DNA of 64,000 nucleotides. Source: Prevotella disiens JCM 6334 = ATCC 29426 (lineage in GTDB: Bacteria; Bacteroidota; Bacteroidia; Bacteroidales; Bacteroidaceae). Position numbers and translations under genes: made by a program. Location of the stretch: contig NZ_BAIS01000003.1 in assembly GCF_000613345.1 (NCBI RefSeq), positions 1-64,000 of the forward strand, given 5' to 3'. Under the pieces are notes generated by a model. The model saw only the letters and a list, made by a program, of their open reading frames with translations, searched no databases and was not told the origin of the DNA. This document shows, piece by piece, positions 6,419 through 59,980 of this stretch (position 1 is its first letter; every line of letters begins with the position of its first letter).

Positions 6419-6594
6419 AATGTATTTCTGCTTTTCGTGCAAAGTATTGCTGCTAAAATTTGATGCAAAGTTACGATATCATTCCCATAGAATGGCAGTT
6501 TTTCTGCTGTTTTTGTTATTTTTCTTGTGCTTTGCAAGCGGTGTGCTTGACGAATATATTATTTTATGGTTCATTGTACAATCGCTTTAAAATT

Positions 6595-6655
6595 TAAAAT
6601 AGGCTCTTTTGAACTTCAAAATAGGCGGTTTTGCAGTGCAAAATAGCCTATTTGA
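6595..6655. repeat. 22-bp-period repeat array, locus 1 (3 units)
   Basis: Three 17-base units of the form (C/T)AAAA-N7-TTTTG start at 6595, 6617 and 6639, separated by 5-base spacers (AACTT, CAGTG). The N7 cores are TAGGCTC, TAGGCGG and TAGCCTA; the last unit is one base short at its end. The array lies in the 349-base gap between the divergent tcdA and TPM genes, which holds no other gene. Confidence 0.8.
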
Positions 6656-15094: not shown

Positions 15095-15243
15095 ATATGT
15101 TTGCAAATGTAAAGGAAAACTCTTAATGAGCAAAATAAATTAGCATTTTTTACATGTCATTTTATTTCATATTCATTAAAAGTCTGCTTTAATCGAAGTC
15201 TATTGTTGCTTTTGTCGGTTTTCACGCTTGGTATTTGAATGAC

Positions 15244-15304
15244 TAAAAGTGCCTATTTTGAAAGTGAAAACAGGCTCTTTTTAGCACCAAAATAGCCTGT
15301 TTTG
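15244..15304. repeat. 22-bp-period repeat array, locus 2 (3 units)
   Basis: Units start at 15244, 15266 and 15288, each 17 bases with 5-base spacers (AAAGT, AGCAC). The cores are GTGCCTA, CAGGCTC and TAGCCTG. The array lies in the gap between rsmI and dsbD, where the only other element seen is the dsbD terminator. Confidence 0.8.
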
Positions 15305-17550: not shown

Positions 17551-17796
17551 TGTTCCAGTATGTTACGTTTTTCTTTTATTTTTTTTGAATTTAAGATTGT
17601 TTGCCTCCTTGTTTGTTAGAAATAAGTTCTGCATAACGAATTACAAAGGTAATGTTTTTTTTCAAAAACAAAACCTTTGCAGCTATTTTTTTTGTTATTT
17701 ATTCATTTTTGTAAGTTCCTAATATCTTAAATATTAAGCACTTTAAGTATTTTTACATGTGAAAAGGAAGAATTTTCACCTTAATAAAATGTATTT

Positions 17797-18834
17797 TTAC
17801 ATCACTCCGTCTTCACGTAACTTCTGTTGCCATTTCCAAGCCGAAGCTAATACGTCTTCGAGTGGTGTGTTGGCTTTCCAACCTAACACCTTATTTGCTT
17901 TGGTGCAATCGCCCCATATCTTTTCAATATCTCCCTCTCTGCGTGCGCCATACTTCCAATTAAGTTTCACACCTGTAGCTTTTTCGAAAGTGGTAATGAT
18001 TTCTAAGGTAGAGTTACCACGCCCTGTTCCGATGTTGAAATACTCAATCTTGTCAGTTTCTTTGTCTAATACGCGTGTCATTGCAGCCACATGCGCTTTG
18101 GCAAGGTCTACTACGTAAATGTAATCGCGTATGCAAGTGCCGTCTTCAGTGTTGTAATCGTTTCCGAAAATAGTGAGTTGTTGGCGTATGCCCATGGCCG
18201 TTTGCGTAACATAAGGAATTAAATTGTTCGGTACACCATTAGGCAATTCGCCAATATGTGCCGAAGGGTGTGCGCCAATAGGATTGAAATAACGAAGCAC
18301 AATGCTCTTAATATTAGCTCCGCTGTGTATGTAATCGTAAATGATTTGCTCGTTTATTTCCTTTGTATTACCGTATGGAGAAGTCGCTTTTTGATGTGGA
18401 GCGTCCTCTGTAACAGGAAGATTTTCTTGATTAGGCTGACCATAAACGGTGCAAGAACTTGAGAAAATAATGCCTTTAACATTGTATTTAGGCATGAGTT
18501 CCAAAAGATTTATGAGCGAAACAACATTGTTACGATAGTACATTAAAGGCTTTTCAACGCTTTCACCTACTGCCTTTGAAGCTGCAAAATGAATGATTCC
18601 TTCAATGTTTGGATACTTTTGGAAGATTTTTTCTGTAGCAATTTTGTCTTCAAGATTGGCTTGTTCGAATGCTGGGCGCACCCCTGTTATCTTCTCAATA
18701 CCATCAAGTACTTCTATTTTTGAGTTTGAAAGATTATCAACAATCACAACATTGTAGCCTGCTTCTTGCAATTCTACCGTTGTGTGTGAACCAATAAAAC
18801 CAGTTCCACCAGTAACTAAAATTGTTTGCTTCAT
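17797..18834 (-). CDS. galE: UDP-glucose 4-epimerase
   Basis: A 345-residue short-chain-dehydrogenase-type epimerase. The NAD-binding GGTGFIGSHT is at the start, and the catalytic YxxxK is in SPYGNTKEINE; IVLRYFNPIGAHPS and IRDYIYVVDLA are typical GalE segments. It interconverts UDP-glucose and UDP-galactose for polysaccharide and LPS synthesis. A -7 box (TACCTTTG, 18921 to 18914) precedes it, and a divergent box serves the next gene. The 246-base gap to dsbD holds nothing recognisable. Confidence 0.96.
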   Translation of the reverse strand: MKQTILVTGGTGFIGSHTTVELQEAGYNVVIVDNLSNSKIEVLDGIEKITGVRPAFEQANLEDKIATEKIFQKYPNIEGIIHFAASKAVGESVEKPLMYYRNNVVSLINLLELMPKYNVKGIIFSSSCTVYGQPNQENLPVTEDAPHQKATSPYGNTKEINEQIIYDYIHSGANIKSIVLRYFNPIGAHPSAHIGELPNGVPNNLIPYVTQTAMGIRQQLTIFGNDYNTEDGTCIRDYIYVVDLAKAHVAAMTRVLDKETDKIEYFNIGTGRGNSTLEIITTFEKATGVKLNWKYGARREGDIEKIWGDCTKANKVLGWKANTPLEDVLASAWKWQQKLREDGVM

Positions 18835-24701: not shown

Positions 24702-24762
24702 CAAAAGAGCCTATTTGGACGCTCCAAATAGGCTCTTTTTGTGTTCAAAACAATAGGTTTTG
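24702..24762. repeat. 22-bp-period repeat array, locus 3 (3 units), also a terminator
   Basis: Units start at 24702, 24724 and 24746 with spacers ACGCT and GTGTT; the cores are GAGCCTA, TAGGCTC and CAATAGG. The first two units are reverse complements and form a strong hairpin followed by TTTTT, a plausible terminator for the permease gene. Confidence 0.8.
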
Positions 24763-24768
24763 CTTTTC

Positions 24769-24800
24769 GTAGGGGCGTGATTTTAAAATCACGCCCCTAC
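24769..24800. repeat. 32-bp perfect palindrome (REP-like)
   Basis: GTAGGGGCGTGATTTT and its exact complement form a palindrome with no loop. The same arm starts an 82-base hairpin at 49195-49276. The stop codon of the acyltransferase remnant (24797-24799) lies inside it. Confidence 0.8.
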
Positions 24801-28222: not shown

Positions 28223-31200
28223 TTAGAAACCATCTAAATCGTAGTATTCGTCTTCAAAATCGTAATCGAGTGTTGTCTGATTTTCCTGCTTCTTTTCTTT
28301 ATTCTCGTCCTTTTTTGAATCGTCAGAGAAGTAAATATTTGGTCCATCAGGGGTTTGTTTCTTTGTTTCTTCCTTCTTTCCCGTTGTCTTTTTCTCTGTT
28401 GTAGCTTGCTTTTTAGACCCAGTTTTCGCTTTCTTTGGTTGCGCTTTTGGTTCGTCAATAGGCACTTCAAATGTTGTTTGTGGCACTGTTGGTTCAGGTT
28501 CCACTGGAATTACAAATGAATTGTCGTCTATTGGTACTGCCTTTTCTTCCTTTTTCTTGGTTGGTTTTGGCTGCCTCTTAGGTTCAACCTTCTGTGGTTC
28601 AGTCTTTGGAGCAACAGATTCTTCCATTGGAATAACCATTTCCGTGTTCTCAATCATGTTCTTTGGTTCTTCCTTCTTTGGAGTTTCAGGAACAGGAATA
28701 ACCATTTCCGTGTTCTCAACATTCTCTTTTGGTTTTTCTTGCTTCTTTTCTTCAGCAGGAATAACCATTTCGGTAGGTGCAGAAACGTCCTCTTTCGTTG
28801 TTTTTTCCTCCTCCATTGGAATTGTTATACCATTATCAACAGGTTCTATTTCGCCTTGTTCTTGCGCATTTAATTCAGCTTCTGTTGGATTTTTACTTTC
28901 TATTTCTTCTTGCAAATCACTTTCTATTTCTCGTGGTGTAGCAATTTCGGCAGGTTCAGACAATAGGTAACGTGATGTAACCTTTAGTGGAGCGAAATGC
29001 TTTGCATAGAAGTCTTCATAATCTTTGTAACTGAACGATTTGCCAATAAGTTGCAAGTTTTTATCGCTAATGATAATGGCTCGCGTGTCTTTGCTGATTT
29101 GTTCTGTTACGTTTCGGCTGCTAAAGAGTTGTCGTGCATATTGATAAGCCTCGTCAAAACTTCTGAAACCTGACAATTTCATTTGATGTAAGCCCTCAAT
29201 ATTCTCAATTTCTATTTCAAAATTGCGTACATAGAAACTCGTGAAATTAAACCTTGCCATTTCGAAAAGCAACTTGTTTTCCTTTAAAGAATCAGGGTTG
29301 TAAACTAACAAGAACTTGAAATCAATGTCTCTATCTGGCGAGAACTTCACTTGCTTGATACTATCACTATCGTTCAAAACATTGGTTCTGTAACTCCAAA
29401 CATCGCCTAAATCAAATTTACCATTTCTGATTTTCTTACCTGCTTGCACACCATTGACTATCATTCCAGCCATTTCACTAATGCGGCTTTGTGGGAACTT
29501 TTCGACAACTACCTTCATATCGCTCACGCAACCGTCTATATCGCCTTGATTTAACTTACTCAAACCACCGATAAACAAGAACTTATCACGGTTTGCACCC
29601 ATTGGAAAACGACTGTCGGAAATGCGTTTATTGCCACTAACCTCACTAAATCTGTTGTTTTTAAAGGCTTCGTATGTAGCTGCATAAAGCGAGTCTTCGA
29701 TGTGTTCGCCAAACTTTGCATTTTCTTTAAAGTATGGGTCGGTAAGCACAGCCGTCCATTGGCTCTTCGGATAGTTGGCTTTTAGTTTGTTGATATAGCT
29801 ATCTGCCAACTGCGGTTGATTCTTCCTCATGTAAAGTAAGTACAGATGGTAATAAACATCGTCCATTTCTTCATAGTCAGGATAGTTGTCGCTCACTCGT
29901 CGTAAGTTCTTTTCAGCCAATCGTAGGTTGTCCAATCTATCTTTGAAAATAACACCAGCATGATGCAAACCAGTCTCTAAAATCTTATTGCTTGCCTGCA
30001 TTTGCTCTTCTGTAAATGGTATTTGAGCCAAATAAAACTCTCTGCGGTGTGGGTCGTTCTGTACCGAATCGGTTTTACTTTCTATTGAATCTAAACGAGC
30101 TTCCTCCTTTGCTATGGAATCACGCTGCTCGTCTGTCCATTCCATGTTGTTGTTCATACCCCCGACAACGGTTTTATTAACACGCTGCCAGTTGTCTACG
30201 TTCTCACGTTTGCCCCATAGTTTCTGGAATTGTGCTTTACCTTGTTGCACAGCCATAGGGTTATAGAAATACCATGTGCCGTTTTCTTGCTGTTGGCTAC
30301 GTGGCATTGGTGTTGCCATGTTGGAATTATCAGCATTTGCACCCATTCCTTGGTTCTCAGCCATACGCTTTTCAGCATCTAATTCGGCTTGCTTGTTACG
30401 CTCTTCCTTTTCCTTTTTCTTAAGCGCATCTATCACTCTGTCGATGGTTGCCAATCGTTCTGGTTCAGAACATTTGGCTAAATGCTGCAAAGAATCTTGC
30501 AATTCTATCGCCTCTGTATGCGGGGTCAAATCGTCCAATACCTTTGCGCGATTAGAAAGTTGTTCGTAATCTTTTCGGTCTTTGTCTAAAAGTCCGAGTG
30601 CTTCATTGTAACATCTATGTGCATCGCTAAATTTTTCCTTTGTCCAATATAAATCGCCAAGATGTAAAAGCAGAACACCCTTTTCTACACCGCCCCGAGT
30701 AGCCTTTTTATTGCCTTGCTCGTAAGCCGAAATAGCGTTCAATGTATCTTTATCCGCCAAATAAATATTACCCATTGCGTAATATACTTGGTCTAAATAA
30801 TCCTTATTCTTGTCCGATGCCGCCATTCGTTTTAGTCGACTCACCATTTGTTTGGTTTGTCCTGCTGCCATTACTTCTGTTGCAGCTATGCGTGCATTAA
30901 ATTCTAATTCGTAAGGAGGGTTGGCTTTAATGACGTGTTTAAACGAATTGTAAGCAGCTTCTTTATTACCCAAAGCAGCTTGCAATTGCCCCATTAAGTA
31001 CCACTCTCTTGCTTTTTGCTTCTTGCGCATCTCGTGTTTGATGACTTTTTGCAAGTAGGGTACAGCTTTTTCAAATTCGCCTGTGTGGATATAATAGTCA
31101 GCGTAAGTGTAATTCCATTCTCTCACTGCACGCCAATCTAACGAATCACGCTTCATATTTCGGATTACATCTTCCGCATCGTAAAGCCAACCTGCCTCAA

Positions 31201-31753
31201 TATACGATTTTGCCAACCACGCACGCGCTTTTCCATAGATAGCTGGTTGCGTTTTATACAATCGGCTCATGTAGGAAAACGTTGTTGCGGCATCTTCAAA
31301 AGCTCCTTTATAGAATTGAGAACGCCCCATGAGCATCCATGCTTTCCATATAAAAGGGTTGTATTCCTTACGATTCAACCATTCTATATCTTTTTCTGTT
31401 TTGCGTCTTGATTTATTCCATTCAGGTTTTTTCTTTATACTGTGTCGGGCAATGGCTTTCTCTGCTTTTTCAATAGCACGCTCATAGTTACCTTTTCCTA
31501 AATCTTTGCTTGATTTATTGCCTACGGTATAGAGTGGAATTATTTCTGTAAAGTTATCCTTATTGCCGTTTTCTTTTTCCAAAGATGCATCGATGTAGGC
31601 TTGCGCTCCATTATAATAGGTGTTGTATTTGGCATTAAAAGAGTGCCACCAACGCGATTGCGAGGTGTTATTTTTGGTAGAACAACTTACGATAACTAAT
31701 AAAATGCTTGCTACCAAAAGGGCTGTAAAATATTTTGCGTAACTTATCTTCAC
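28223..31753 (-). CDS. porW: Type IX secretion lipoprotein PorW/SprE (TPR)
   Basis: A 1176-residue TPR lipoprotein. The lipobox is IVSC (cysteine 24) and the family start reads RWWHSFNAKYNTYYNGAQAY. TPR-like repeats cover about 130-420, with another repeat region around 600-850. The last 250 residues are low-complexity Lys/Glu/Pro with three TEMVIP repeats followed by basic stretches. PorW/SprE is an outer-membrane lipoprotein required for type IX secretion. The gene ends 67 bases before porX on the same strand, making porW-porX-tsaE a likely operon. The extended tail is unusual and may be under little constraint. Confidence 0.9.
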   Translation of the reverse strand: MKISYAKYFTALLVASILLVIVSCSTKNNTSQSRWWHSFNAKYNTYYNGAQAYIDASLEKENGNKDNFTEIIPLYTVGNKSSKDLGKGNYERAIEKAEKAIARHSIKKKPEWNKSRRKTEKDIEWLNRKEYNPFIWKAWMLMGRSQFYKGAFEDAATTFSYMSRLYKTQPAIYGKARAWLAKSYIEAGWLYDAEDVIRNMKRDSLDWRAVREWNYTYADYYIHTGEFEKAVPYLQKVIKHEMRKKQKAREWYLMGQLQAALGNKEAAYNSFKHVIKANPPYELEFNARIAATEVMAAGQTKQMVSRLKRMAASDKNKDYLDQVYYAMGNIYLADKDTLNAISAYEQGNKKATRGGVEKGVLLLHLGDLYWTKEKFSDAHRCYNEALGLLDKDRKDYEQLSNRAKVLDDLTPHTEAIELQDSLQHLAKCSEPERLATIDRVIDALKKKEKEERNKQAELDAEKRMAENQGMGANADNSNMATPMPRSQQQENGTWYFYNPMAVQQGKAQFQKLWGKRENVDNWQRVNKTVVGGMNNNMEWTDEQRDSIAKEEARLDSIESKTDSVQNDPHRREFYLAQIPFTEEQMQASNKILETGLHHAGVIFKDRLDNLRLAEKNLRRVSDNYPDYEEMDDVYYHLYLLYMRKNQPQLADSYINKLKANYPKSQWTAVLTDPYFKENAKFGEHIEDSLYAATYEAFKNNRFSEVSGNKRISDSRFPMGANRDKFLFIGGLSKLNQGDIDGCVSDMKVVVEKFPQSRISEMAGMIVNGVQAGKKIRNGKFDLGDVWSYRTNVLNDSDSIKQVKFSPDRDIDFKFLLVYNPDSLKENKLLFEMARFNFTSFYVRNFEIEIENIEGLHQMKLSGFRSFDEAYQYARQLFSSRNVTEQISKDTRAIIISDKNLQLIGKSFSYKDYEDFYAKHFAPLKVTSRYLLSEPAEIATPREIESDLQEEIESKNPTEAELNAQEQGEIEPVDNGITIPMEEEKTTKEDVSAPTEMVIPAEEKKQEKPKENVENTEMVIPVPETPKKEEPKNMIENTEMVIPMEESVAPKTEPQKVEPKRQPKPTKKKEEKAVPIDDNSFVIPVEPEPTVPQTTFEVPIDEPKAQPKKAKTGSKKQATTEKKTTGKKEETKKQTPDGPNIYFSDDSKKDENKEKKQENQTTLDYDFEDEYYDLDGF

Positions 31754-37399: not shown

Positions 37400-37597
37400 T
37401 GTTTTTTTCTTTTAATTTTTAATTAATTATTTAATGAAGTGACCACAACAATTCACATATCACATTGCGAGCTGTTTGCGACCACAAAAAAAAATGCGGC
37501 GCAAAGGTATGAAAATAGTGGTAAAAAATCGAGACTCCACTTGCAAAAAAAATATAAATATGCCATTTATAACCAAATCGTTGTATGCTTTAAAATT

Positions 37598-37658
37598 CAA
37601 AATAGGCTGTTTTTTATCTCAAAAGAGCCTATTTTGCAGTTCAAAACAGGCACTTTTG
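37598..37658. repeat. 22-bp-period repeat array, locus 4 (3 units)
   Basis: Units start at 37598, 37620 and 37642 with spacers TATCT and CAGTT; the cores are TAGGCTG, GAGCCTA and CAGGCAC. It lies just past the stop of hemW (minus strand). Confidence 0.8.
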
Positions 37659-41391: not shown

Positions 41392-41525
41392 TATCTTTGC
41401 ATAAGATATAGCTGCACTCGGCAATTAGAAAGTAAACTTTCTTTGCACTCGTTGGCAATATCTTTGCATAAGATATAGCTGCACTCGGCAAATAGAAAGT
41501 AAACTTTCTTTGCGCTCGTTGGCTA
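41392..41525 (+). repeat. 67-bp tandem element with -7 boxes, copy A
   Basis: Two copies of a 67-bp unit (starts 41392 and 41459), nearly identical. Each begins TATCTTTGCATAAGATATAG, continues with GCTGCACTCGGCAA, and contains GAAAGTAAACTTTC, an inverted repeat. Each opening box matches TAnnTTTG, so the element can supply promoters for the downstream operon starting at 41545. A related, inverted copy lies at 49287-49378. Confidence 0.85.
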
Positions 41526-49378: not shown

Positions 49379-49698
49379 GTGTAAATTAAGCATAATACCA
49401 ATATATTCACTTTTTTTAAAAAATAAAATATAAGATTTTGGTAATTGGATATTTTTTGTTTAACTATTTTTGGTCGTGCGTTAGAGAGAAATGAAGTAGA
49501 CGGTCTCGAACTTTTTTATCTTTTTAGGTGTGCATAAATGTAGCAGAATTGCTAACTTTCGGTGCATTTTACTCCATTTTTTACACTCAAATTGTTCTAA
49601 ATTCGTGTTCTAAAAATGGACAAAATTAGATGAGAAATGTACTTCTCTGTATCTTGCTGATTATCAATTTATTATGTGGTTTTTATATTTTTGCCTTT

Positions 49699-49781
49699 CA
49701 AAACAGTATATTTTAGCGTTCAAAACAATAGGTTTTAAGCTTCAAAACAGTCGGTTTTGCAGAGCGAAACAATAGGTCTTG
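49699..49781. repeat. 22-bp-period repeat array, locus 5 (4 units)
   Basis: Units start at 49699, 49721, 49743 and 49765 with spacers GCGTT, AGCTT and CAGAG. The cores are CAGTATA, CAATAGG, CAGTCGG and CAATAGG. The last unit has two substitutions in its flanks. This is the longest array in the window. Confidence 0.85.
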
Positions 49782-49870
49782 TTTTTTAAAGCCTAATTTT
49801 AAAGAATTGTCGGAGCTATATTGTTCTCTTTTTCCGTATTCAAAAAATGATGCTAAAAATACCAATTAAT

Positions 49871-59919: not shown

Positions 59920-59980
59920 TAAAAGTGCCTATTTTGAACCGCAAAATAGGCTCTTTTTGATGTTGAAACCTATTGTTTTG
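59920..59980. repeat. 22-bp-period repeat array, locus 6 (3 units)
   Basis: Units start at 59920, 59942 and 59964 with spacers AACCG and GATGT; the cores are GTGCCTA, TAGGCTC and CCTATTG (the complement of CAATAGG). It lies in the 408-base gap between dps and the YfhO gene, which holds no other gene. Confidence 0.8.

Follow-up and report, generated by a model that had tools for sequence, protein, structure and literature searches.

REP/BIME elements, which are associated with RAYT transposases, consist of short palindromic units that alternate in orientation and occur in many intergenic copies, CRISPR arrays combine repeats of at least 23 bp with unique spacers of approximately 30 bp, and phased A-tracts, about one per helical turn, are predicted to curve DNA. 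Two dispersed repeats stand closer to the arrays described here. PINSR is a 188-bp intergenic repeat present at ~180 copies per genome in the Prevotella intermedia/nigrescens group, P. falsenii included (PMC4755523). The portions of that report dealing with the element give a single 188-bp consensus for four related species, and they describe it as restricted to the group and devoid of terminal inverted repeats. BrickBuilt is an intergenic MITE-like element of Porphyromonas gingivalis and P. gulae, with tandem 23-nt units and 19 copies in one strain, and its repeat number is described in the same source as very variable (PMC4596501).

Arrays in the P. disiens window

The window, i.e., the whole stretch of 64,000 nucleotides of P. 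disiens DNA that was analysed, harbours six arrays totalling 19 units of 17 bp, with each step being 22 bp. The initial annotation had reported these loci, units and period, all of which were confirmed by direct re-reading of the sequence, and the period also by an unbiased spacing test (see below). In these 19 units, 32 of the 38 A4/T4 tracts are exact, and the other six are off by one base. Weaker, additional half-units are found in four of the six arrays.

None of the arrays is assigned to a strand. The array at 6585..6655, with three units (words TAGGCTC, TAGGCGG and TAGCCTA) and a weaker 5' half-unit, has divergent genes on either side. Divergent genes also flank the array at 49689..49791, which is made up of four units (CAGTATA, CAATAGG, CAGTCGG and CAATAGG) with weaker half-units at both ends. 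Three arrays are located between co-directional genes, at 15234..15304 (three units and a weaker half-unit; GTGCCTA, CAGGCTC and TAGCCTG), 37588..37658 (three units and a weaker half-unit; TAGGCTG, GAGCCTA and CAGGCAC) and 59920..59980 (three units; GTGCCTA, TAGGCTC and CCTATTG), the latter 95 bp past the stop of an 855-aa gene. The array at 24702..24762 (three units; GAGCCTA, TAGGCTC and CAATAGG) lies between convergent genes whose stops are 18 and 34 bp away, and its first two units are inverted copies giving a stem in which 16 of 17 positions pair. Another array, at 17751-17798 (score 17), was excluded as sub-threshold. The proposal that the arrays are intergenic and occur in all gene-orientation contexts is thus supported, with two divergent, one convergent and three co-directional settings in the window. 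With their 5-bp spacers between 17-bp units and their dispersed locations, they do not correspond to CRISPR arrays.

Other repeats were observed in the window. A second family, GTAGGGGCGTGATTT...AATCACGCCCCTAC, is found at 24769-24800, 49195 and 49268, as well as at locus L137 (G000:C181:1-20000). Its exact 9-mer ends number 23 in 464 kb, mainly on contig C181, and a perfect 32-bp palindrome of this family begins 66 bp from the start of array 24702. A 67-bp unit starting with TATCTTTG, which in our estimation resembles the Bacteroidales -7 promoter box, is present in two tandem copies, 96% alike, at 41392-41523. Finally, a ~66-bp repeat with 2.2 tandem copies is located at 28629-28771, within a large minus-strand ORF (28223-31753).

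Period and common frame

The 22-bp period holds, but the unit initially proposed is really made of two 11-bp half-units: the actual repeat is an 11-bp alternation of A4 and T4. We scanned 464,000 bp of the P. disiens genome (the window and 400 kb more), using a score of 18 as the array threshold. The nearest relatives of P. disiens among 398 genus genomes are G233, G529 and G483 (85-86% identity, based on one 855-aa protein), and the G233 assembly comprises 2 contigs and is 99% complete. With a half-period of 11 and scores of at least 18, 36 arrays were collected from the 464 kb of P. disiens and 37 from 400 kb of G233, while half-periods of 7-10 and 12-15 yielded none in these two genomes, with the exception of one array at half-period 10 in P. 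disiens. Two of the checks suggested by the initial annotation, a comparison with shuffled sequence and an analysis of spacing beyond the window, argue against chance. Markov-1 shuffles, at two per segment, gave no array. In the unbiased period test, units were located by their words and the distances were then tallied for gaps up to 80 bp; 45 of 46 gaps in P. disiens are multiples of 22, as are 437 of the 438 gaps tallied for G233 and 181 of the 185 for P. falsenii. The regularity of the arrays is not a matter of chance.

The frame common to the various species is AAAA-N7-TTTT-N7, in which the 7-bp cores are species-specific words. The mean unit over 13 sets reads AAAA-S-N5-S-TTTT-G-N5-C, with tract values that are inflated because the arrays were found by their tracts; the less biased tests of the tracts are the flank-motif search for G233 elements and the comparison of orthologous positions presented below, rather than this profile. 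In other species, array length goes beyond three to four units.

Abundance and distribution

The 36 P. disiens arrays are found in co-directional (22), divergent (6) and convergent (5) gaps, at contig edges (2) and overlapping a predicted ORF (1), and by extrapolation there are roughly 200 arrays per genome. In G233, 151 arrays were identified in 1.6 Mb, 20 of which overlap predicted ORFs of 90 aa or more; arrays are present in 50 of 131 convergent gaps, as compared with 66 of 494 between co-directional genes and 16 of 145 between divergent genes. The arrays occur about every 7-13 kb in the three genomes measured, and short intervals are depleted. Thus, G233 has 3 intervals shorter than 2 kb vs 16.7-20 expected and 20 shorter than 4 kb vs 40.5-44.8 expected (0 of 2000 draws as low). 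For P. disiens, 2 intervals are shorter than 4 kb vs 9.0 expected (P 0.002), and the CV of the intervals is 0.53 vs 0.85 expected (P 0.003). Arrays therefore mutually avoid one another below ~4 kb in both genomes. This repulsion could reflect a function, or else selection against deletion between nearby repeats.

A search of other Bacteroidales had also been proposed, and it yielded matches in the genus but hardly any elsewhere in the order. The pattern (A4N7T4N7)x2A4, searched on both strands together, reads the same backwards, making a reversed control uninformative. It matched 94 of the 299 genus genomes sampled, some of them with single matches that are perhaps due to chance; 30 genomes, including that of P. 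disiens, had at least 10 matches. Species of the genus can thus do without the element, given that 205 genomes had no match. A somewhat tighter pattern matched a single one of 294 other genomes of the order, on a poly-A/T stretch. Of 151 family genomes, two, including P. disiens, contain the tight CAAAA/TTTTG pattern. A scan of named species gave at least 80 loci, nearly all of them from Prevotella or Prevotellaceae by title; Leyella, Hoylesella, Marseilla and one Mediterranea massiliensis are among the matches listed. We also scanned the 2.9 million contigs of IMG/VR for phage carriage, and 7 viral contigs matched.

Species-specific words

Within a species, the cores mostly correspond to few words. 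GAGCCTA, CAATAGG and CAGGCTC account for 54 of 120 units in P. disiens. The words are CCTACGC, CAGCCGC, CAATAGG and GAGCCGC in G233, CCGTAGG, CAATAGG and CCTACGC in P. falsenii, ACCATAC and ACCCCCT in P. pallens, GCTTACC and GCTAAGC in P. brunnea, and GGACTCC in Leyella stercorea. G483 harbours P. pallens-like words, G233-like four-unit arrays and words of its own together (C116:24109-24189; C129:28703-28783), indicating that word families can coexist. Of note, arrays of nearly identical 22-bp units, apparently at contig ends judging by the lengths of loci and contigs, were observed in RumenCo841 (L035, L062, L082 and L094) and RGIG5135 (L057 and L085), which suggests the presence of larger tandem arrays that break the assemblies.

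The P. intermedia-clade element and PINSR

In G233, 149 of 151 arrays are anchored on one unit. Among complete elements, 108 of 111 have exactly 186 bp between the end motifs TGTAAAGATAATTC and GAAAAATATTTACA, and the element holds four array units. Both motifs are found near 136 of the 151 G233 arrays and 54 of the 55 arrays in 400 kb of P. falsenii DSM 22864. No clean target duplication was found at the 186-bp boundary in G233. This element agrees with PINSR, as described in the available portions of the report (PMC4755523), in size, copy number, intergenic setting and the presence of P. falsenii among the hosts; matched by description rather than by sequence letters, it is very probably PINSR.

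The situation differs in P. disiens, where both end motifs are near 3 of 39 arrays and one motif near 10, which is about chance level. In the window, one of the six arrays has one end motif and none has both, and the 186-bp element was not found there. We thus rejected the idea that PINSR ends surround the P. disiens arrays. A different flank motif is kept near 10 of the 39 P. disiens arrays, all of them outside the window. The family, not recognised as a named one in the initial annotation, is thus not entirely without a name: in the P. intermedia clade the array very probably forms the core of PINSR, even though PINSR flanks are no more frequent than by chance at the P. disiens arrays. The arrays constitute a Prevotella-wide superfamily, PINSR being very probably its P. 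intermedia-clade member.

Mobility of the arrays

Between P. disiens and G233, whose proteins have a median identity of 84%, we identified 143 syntenic gene pairs. Seven of them, the informative ones, have an array in one genome, and none has an array in both. Within 1.5 kb 3' of the 855-aa gene next to array 59920, an array is present in 3 of 29 relatives, namely G483 (200 bp on), G464 and G457 (score 14), and absent from G233 and G529.

P. falsenii and G233 could be compared more closely: in the part of G233 examined, both flanks were matched for 24 of 79 P. falsenii arrays, 17 of which have a G233 array in place (two share one) and 7 do not. The latter comprise 4 clean empty sites and 3 with unclear boundaries. 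At the clean sites, the P. falsenii insertion is 451-567 bp long with ends like ACGTGAGTTCGGTATAAG, and overlaps of 6-9 bp are found at 3 of the 4. Similar ends delimit an insertion sequence present in six copies of 1025-1027 bp in 1.6 Mb of G233, with a transposase of the IS982 family (NF033520, E 3.9e-84) and perfect duplications of at least 7 bp at 4 of the 6 copies, as judged by eye. Both IS982-type MITE ends are recognisable at 8 of 55 arrays in P. falsenii, 5 of 151 in G233 and none of 39 in P. disiens. A perfect 7-bp target duplication, allowing small offsets, accompanies 6 of the 8 MITE-ended arrays of P. falsenii and none of the 5 of G233. The array-bearing forms are 344-565 bp long, and IS982-type MITEs of ~139 or ~239 bp that carry no array are also found, as solo copies, in P. 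falsenii and G233. Most array insertions are thus specific to a lineage, and IS982-type MITEs carry some of the copies of one clade, in keeping with the initial suggestion of a mobile or structural repeat. IS982 does not track array richness, as genome G496 has 97 two-unit matches but no IS982 and genome G210 has 24 IS982 matches but no array match. This indicates that IS982 is a vehicle in the P. intermedia clade and not the general driver, the latter role being unsupported.

These data raise the real, if less favoured, possibility that the arrays are purely selfish, i.e., a mobile element bearing a minisatellite in the manner of BrickBuilt, whose tracts serve its spread alone or stay alike through conversion, with no gain for the host. 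The array presence in one genome only at syntenic pairs, the P. intermedia-clade copies with MITE ends and duplications, the solo MITEs and the patchy distribution across species would all be accounted for in this manner. It fits less well with the independence of array richness from IS982 or with the 39 P. disiens arrays, which are intact although none has recognisable IS982-type ends. It also has to contend with the conservation of the tracts in place.

Conservation in place and predicted curvature

When G233 elements were located by their flank motifs alone, 130 of 134 were found to retain 30-32 of the 32 tract letters, while the flank interiors of the same elements show 71-77% consensus. 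We then compared 15 orthologous positions of P. falsenii and G233, after dropping two of 17 rows (L206, one G233 array) with an outer identity of at most 0.7. Differences affect 20 of 564 tract sites (3.5%), 140 of 448 core sites (31%) and 77 of 434 spacer sites, as compared with 378 of 1742 in the near flank (22%), 525 of 2556 in the far flank and 548 of 4170 in the outer regions. The tracts thus change far more slowly, and the words faster, than the flanks at these positions (Fisher tests with sites taken as independent, 7e-29 for tract vs flank and 4e-5 for core vs flank). No tract change is found in 10 of the 15 arrays. When 52 unit positions from 13 arrays were aligned, the words proved to be changed by at least two letters at 23 and identical at 19. 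The element's own flanks therefore decay around intact tracts, contrary to expectations for a purely selfish element. Conversion between copies, without host selection, could be the source of tract constancy, at least in part. That species differing in their words and flanks have this frame in common points to host use.

Intrinsic curvature is predicted for the arrays. Using wedge parameters drawn from general knowledge, the model yields end-to-end ratios of 0.782 for 125 G233 arrays and 0.809 for 36 P. disiens arrays, vs ~0.965 after permutation of the arrays and 0.946 for intergenic DNA without arrays. For synthetic A4/T4 sequences, a half-period of 10 is predicted to be the most curved in a relaxed model (0.725 vs 0.772 at 11), and the optimum moves to a half-period of 11 (0.710) in an underwound model with a twist of ~11 bp per turn. 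According to these calculations, array DNA would be phased for ~11 bp per turn. The initial proposal of a protein bound on one face of the DNA agrees with this helical phasing and with the conservation of the frame in place, the binding itself being the putative part.

The explanation that we tentatively favour over the others is that of a dispersed docking element made of curved DNA, spread by transposition, whose frame is selected by the host and whose words turn over. Its working part would be a stretch of ~60-110 bp built of A4 and T4 tracts in alternation at 11-bp steps, and the curved frame might dock a protein that bends or wraps DNA. Candidates include a nucleoid-type protein, gyrase, or a protein that would read the words while sitting on one face of the DNA, with one copy every 11 or 22 bp. 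Such elements would spread by hitch-hiking, after which selection at the host level would retain the frame, plausibly for local supercoiling or chromosome architecture. Inside each genome the words would be homogenised by inter-copy conversion, and they would drift from one species to another.

Hairpins, operators and REP-like elements

Neighbouring inverted units might form 17-bp stems with 5-base loops and serve as bidirectional terminators or RNA hairpins, as the stem of array 24702 illustrates. The orientation of same-word units varies between species. Among 16 sets, two are significantly inverted, G233 (139 inverted vs 9 direct) and P. falsenii (121 vs 55), and arrays favour convergent gaps in G233. 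Six sets are significantly direct (direct/inverted counts of 37/14 for P. pallens, 90/20 for RGIG4852, 15/3 for CAMNII, 32/1 for RUG14873, 40/0 for RumenCo841 and 38/0 for RGIG5135), and eight are undecided, including P. disiens (22/16). Arrays also occur between divergent genes (2 of 6 in the window and 6 of the 33 P. disiens arrays with both neighbours), and an Rfam scan of the window gave no match. For unit pairs complementary in both P. falsenii and G233, both words have changed in 7 of 8 cases, as might be expected for a stem, but another 11 pairs show complementarity either in P. falsenii or in G233, not in both. For G233 words, the G/C position agrees between the two sides of the stem in 23 of 61 copies (four word sets, counted by hand) vs ~29 expected. 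The top co-varying columns of the G233 element do not show consistent Watson-Crick pairing and correspond instead to word swaps or subfamilies, so that selection for an RNA stem was rejected for this element. Hairpins or terminators are thus an improbable explanation of the arrays, and a general role as terminators is not supported by the orientation counts over the 16 sets, in agreement with the initial statement that terminators do not explain them. Nevertheless, the inverted pairs, the paired word changes and the preference for convergent gaps make a side-role of this type possible in the clade of G233 and P. falsenii.

Near-palindromic units with a species-specific centre are also what one would expect of operators read by an evolving dimer, with each 17-bp near-palindrome bound by a transcription regulator, several dimers per site and the sites forming a regulon. 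We consider this very doubtful, because the arrays are located away from predicted starts (the 10th percentile of the distance is 116 bp in P. disiens and 194 bp in G233) and their positions are not common to P. disiens and G233. Furthermore, in a Pfam scan of ten proteins flanking the window arrays, seven match unrelated families over the cut-off (TPM domain, ThiF, tetrapyrrole methylase, DsbD, permease, radical SAM/HemN and UDP-sugar dehydrogenase), one has a match below the cut-off only, and two have none.

REP/BIME elements spread by a RAYT (Y1) transposase share with the arrays their many intergenic copies in both orientations and their short palindromic units of species-specific sequence, but such an origin is highly unlikely and not supported, since Y1_Tnp (PF01797) does not track the arrays, being present in 3 of the 10 array-bearing genomes tested (G160, G156 and G371), absent from the other 7, P. 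disiens and G233 included, and present in 5 of 11 array-free genomes.

Relation to known systems

Returning to the docking element, a broader and more speculative extension, which we regard as unlikely but worth stating, is that some Prevotella use curved, 11-bp-phased platforms as chromosome marks at intervals of about 7-13 kb, on which the 7-bp words would represent a species-specific address read by a putative protein. The words would be replaced in concert throughout the genome while the platform remains constant, yielding a fast-evolving, chromosome-organising code spread by transposition. A fixed helical frame together with words that outpace the flanks of the same sites in their change offers a testable sign that the host makes use of an element borne by a transposon, and the array-bearing Prevotella form a natural comparative series in which to look for a word-reading protein.

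In the literature searched (open-licence PMC papers), we found no description of a genus-wide frame, species-specific words or in-place conservation, and the terms 'PINSR' and 'Prevotella' occur together only in PMC4755523. The array family has very probably been described in part, as PINSR in one clade. The passages on PINSR in that paper mention neither a 22-bp frame nor relatives with other words. Our analyses join this seemingly group-specific repeat to a genus-wide family that is defined by DNA geometry and not by sequence. As described in the parts of the report devoted to it (PMC4596501), BrickBuilt resembles the Prevotella arrays in being intergenic, MITE-like and the carrier of a tandem array; it differs by its period of 23 vs 22, the two having been compared by description and not by sequence.

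The defining feature of the Prevotella arrays, their 11-bp A4/T4 phase, sets them apart from REP/BIME elements. With phased A-tract curved DNA, they share A-tracts approximately once per helical turn and a predicted curvature of the helix, but they differ from it by the alternation of A4 and T4 at 11 bp, their conserved species words and their many dispersed copies.
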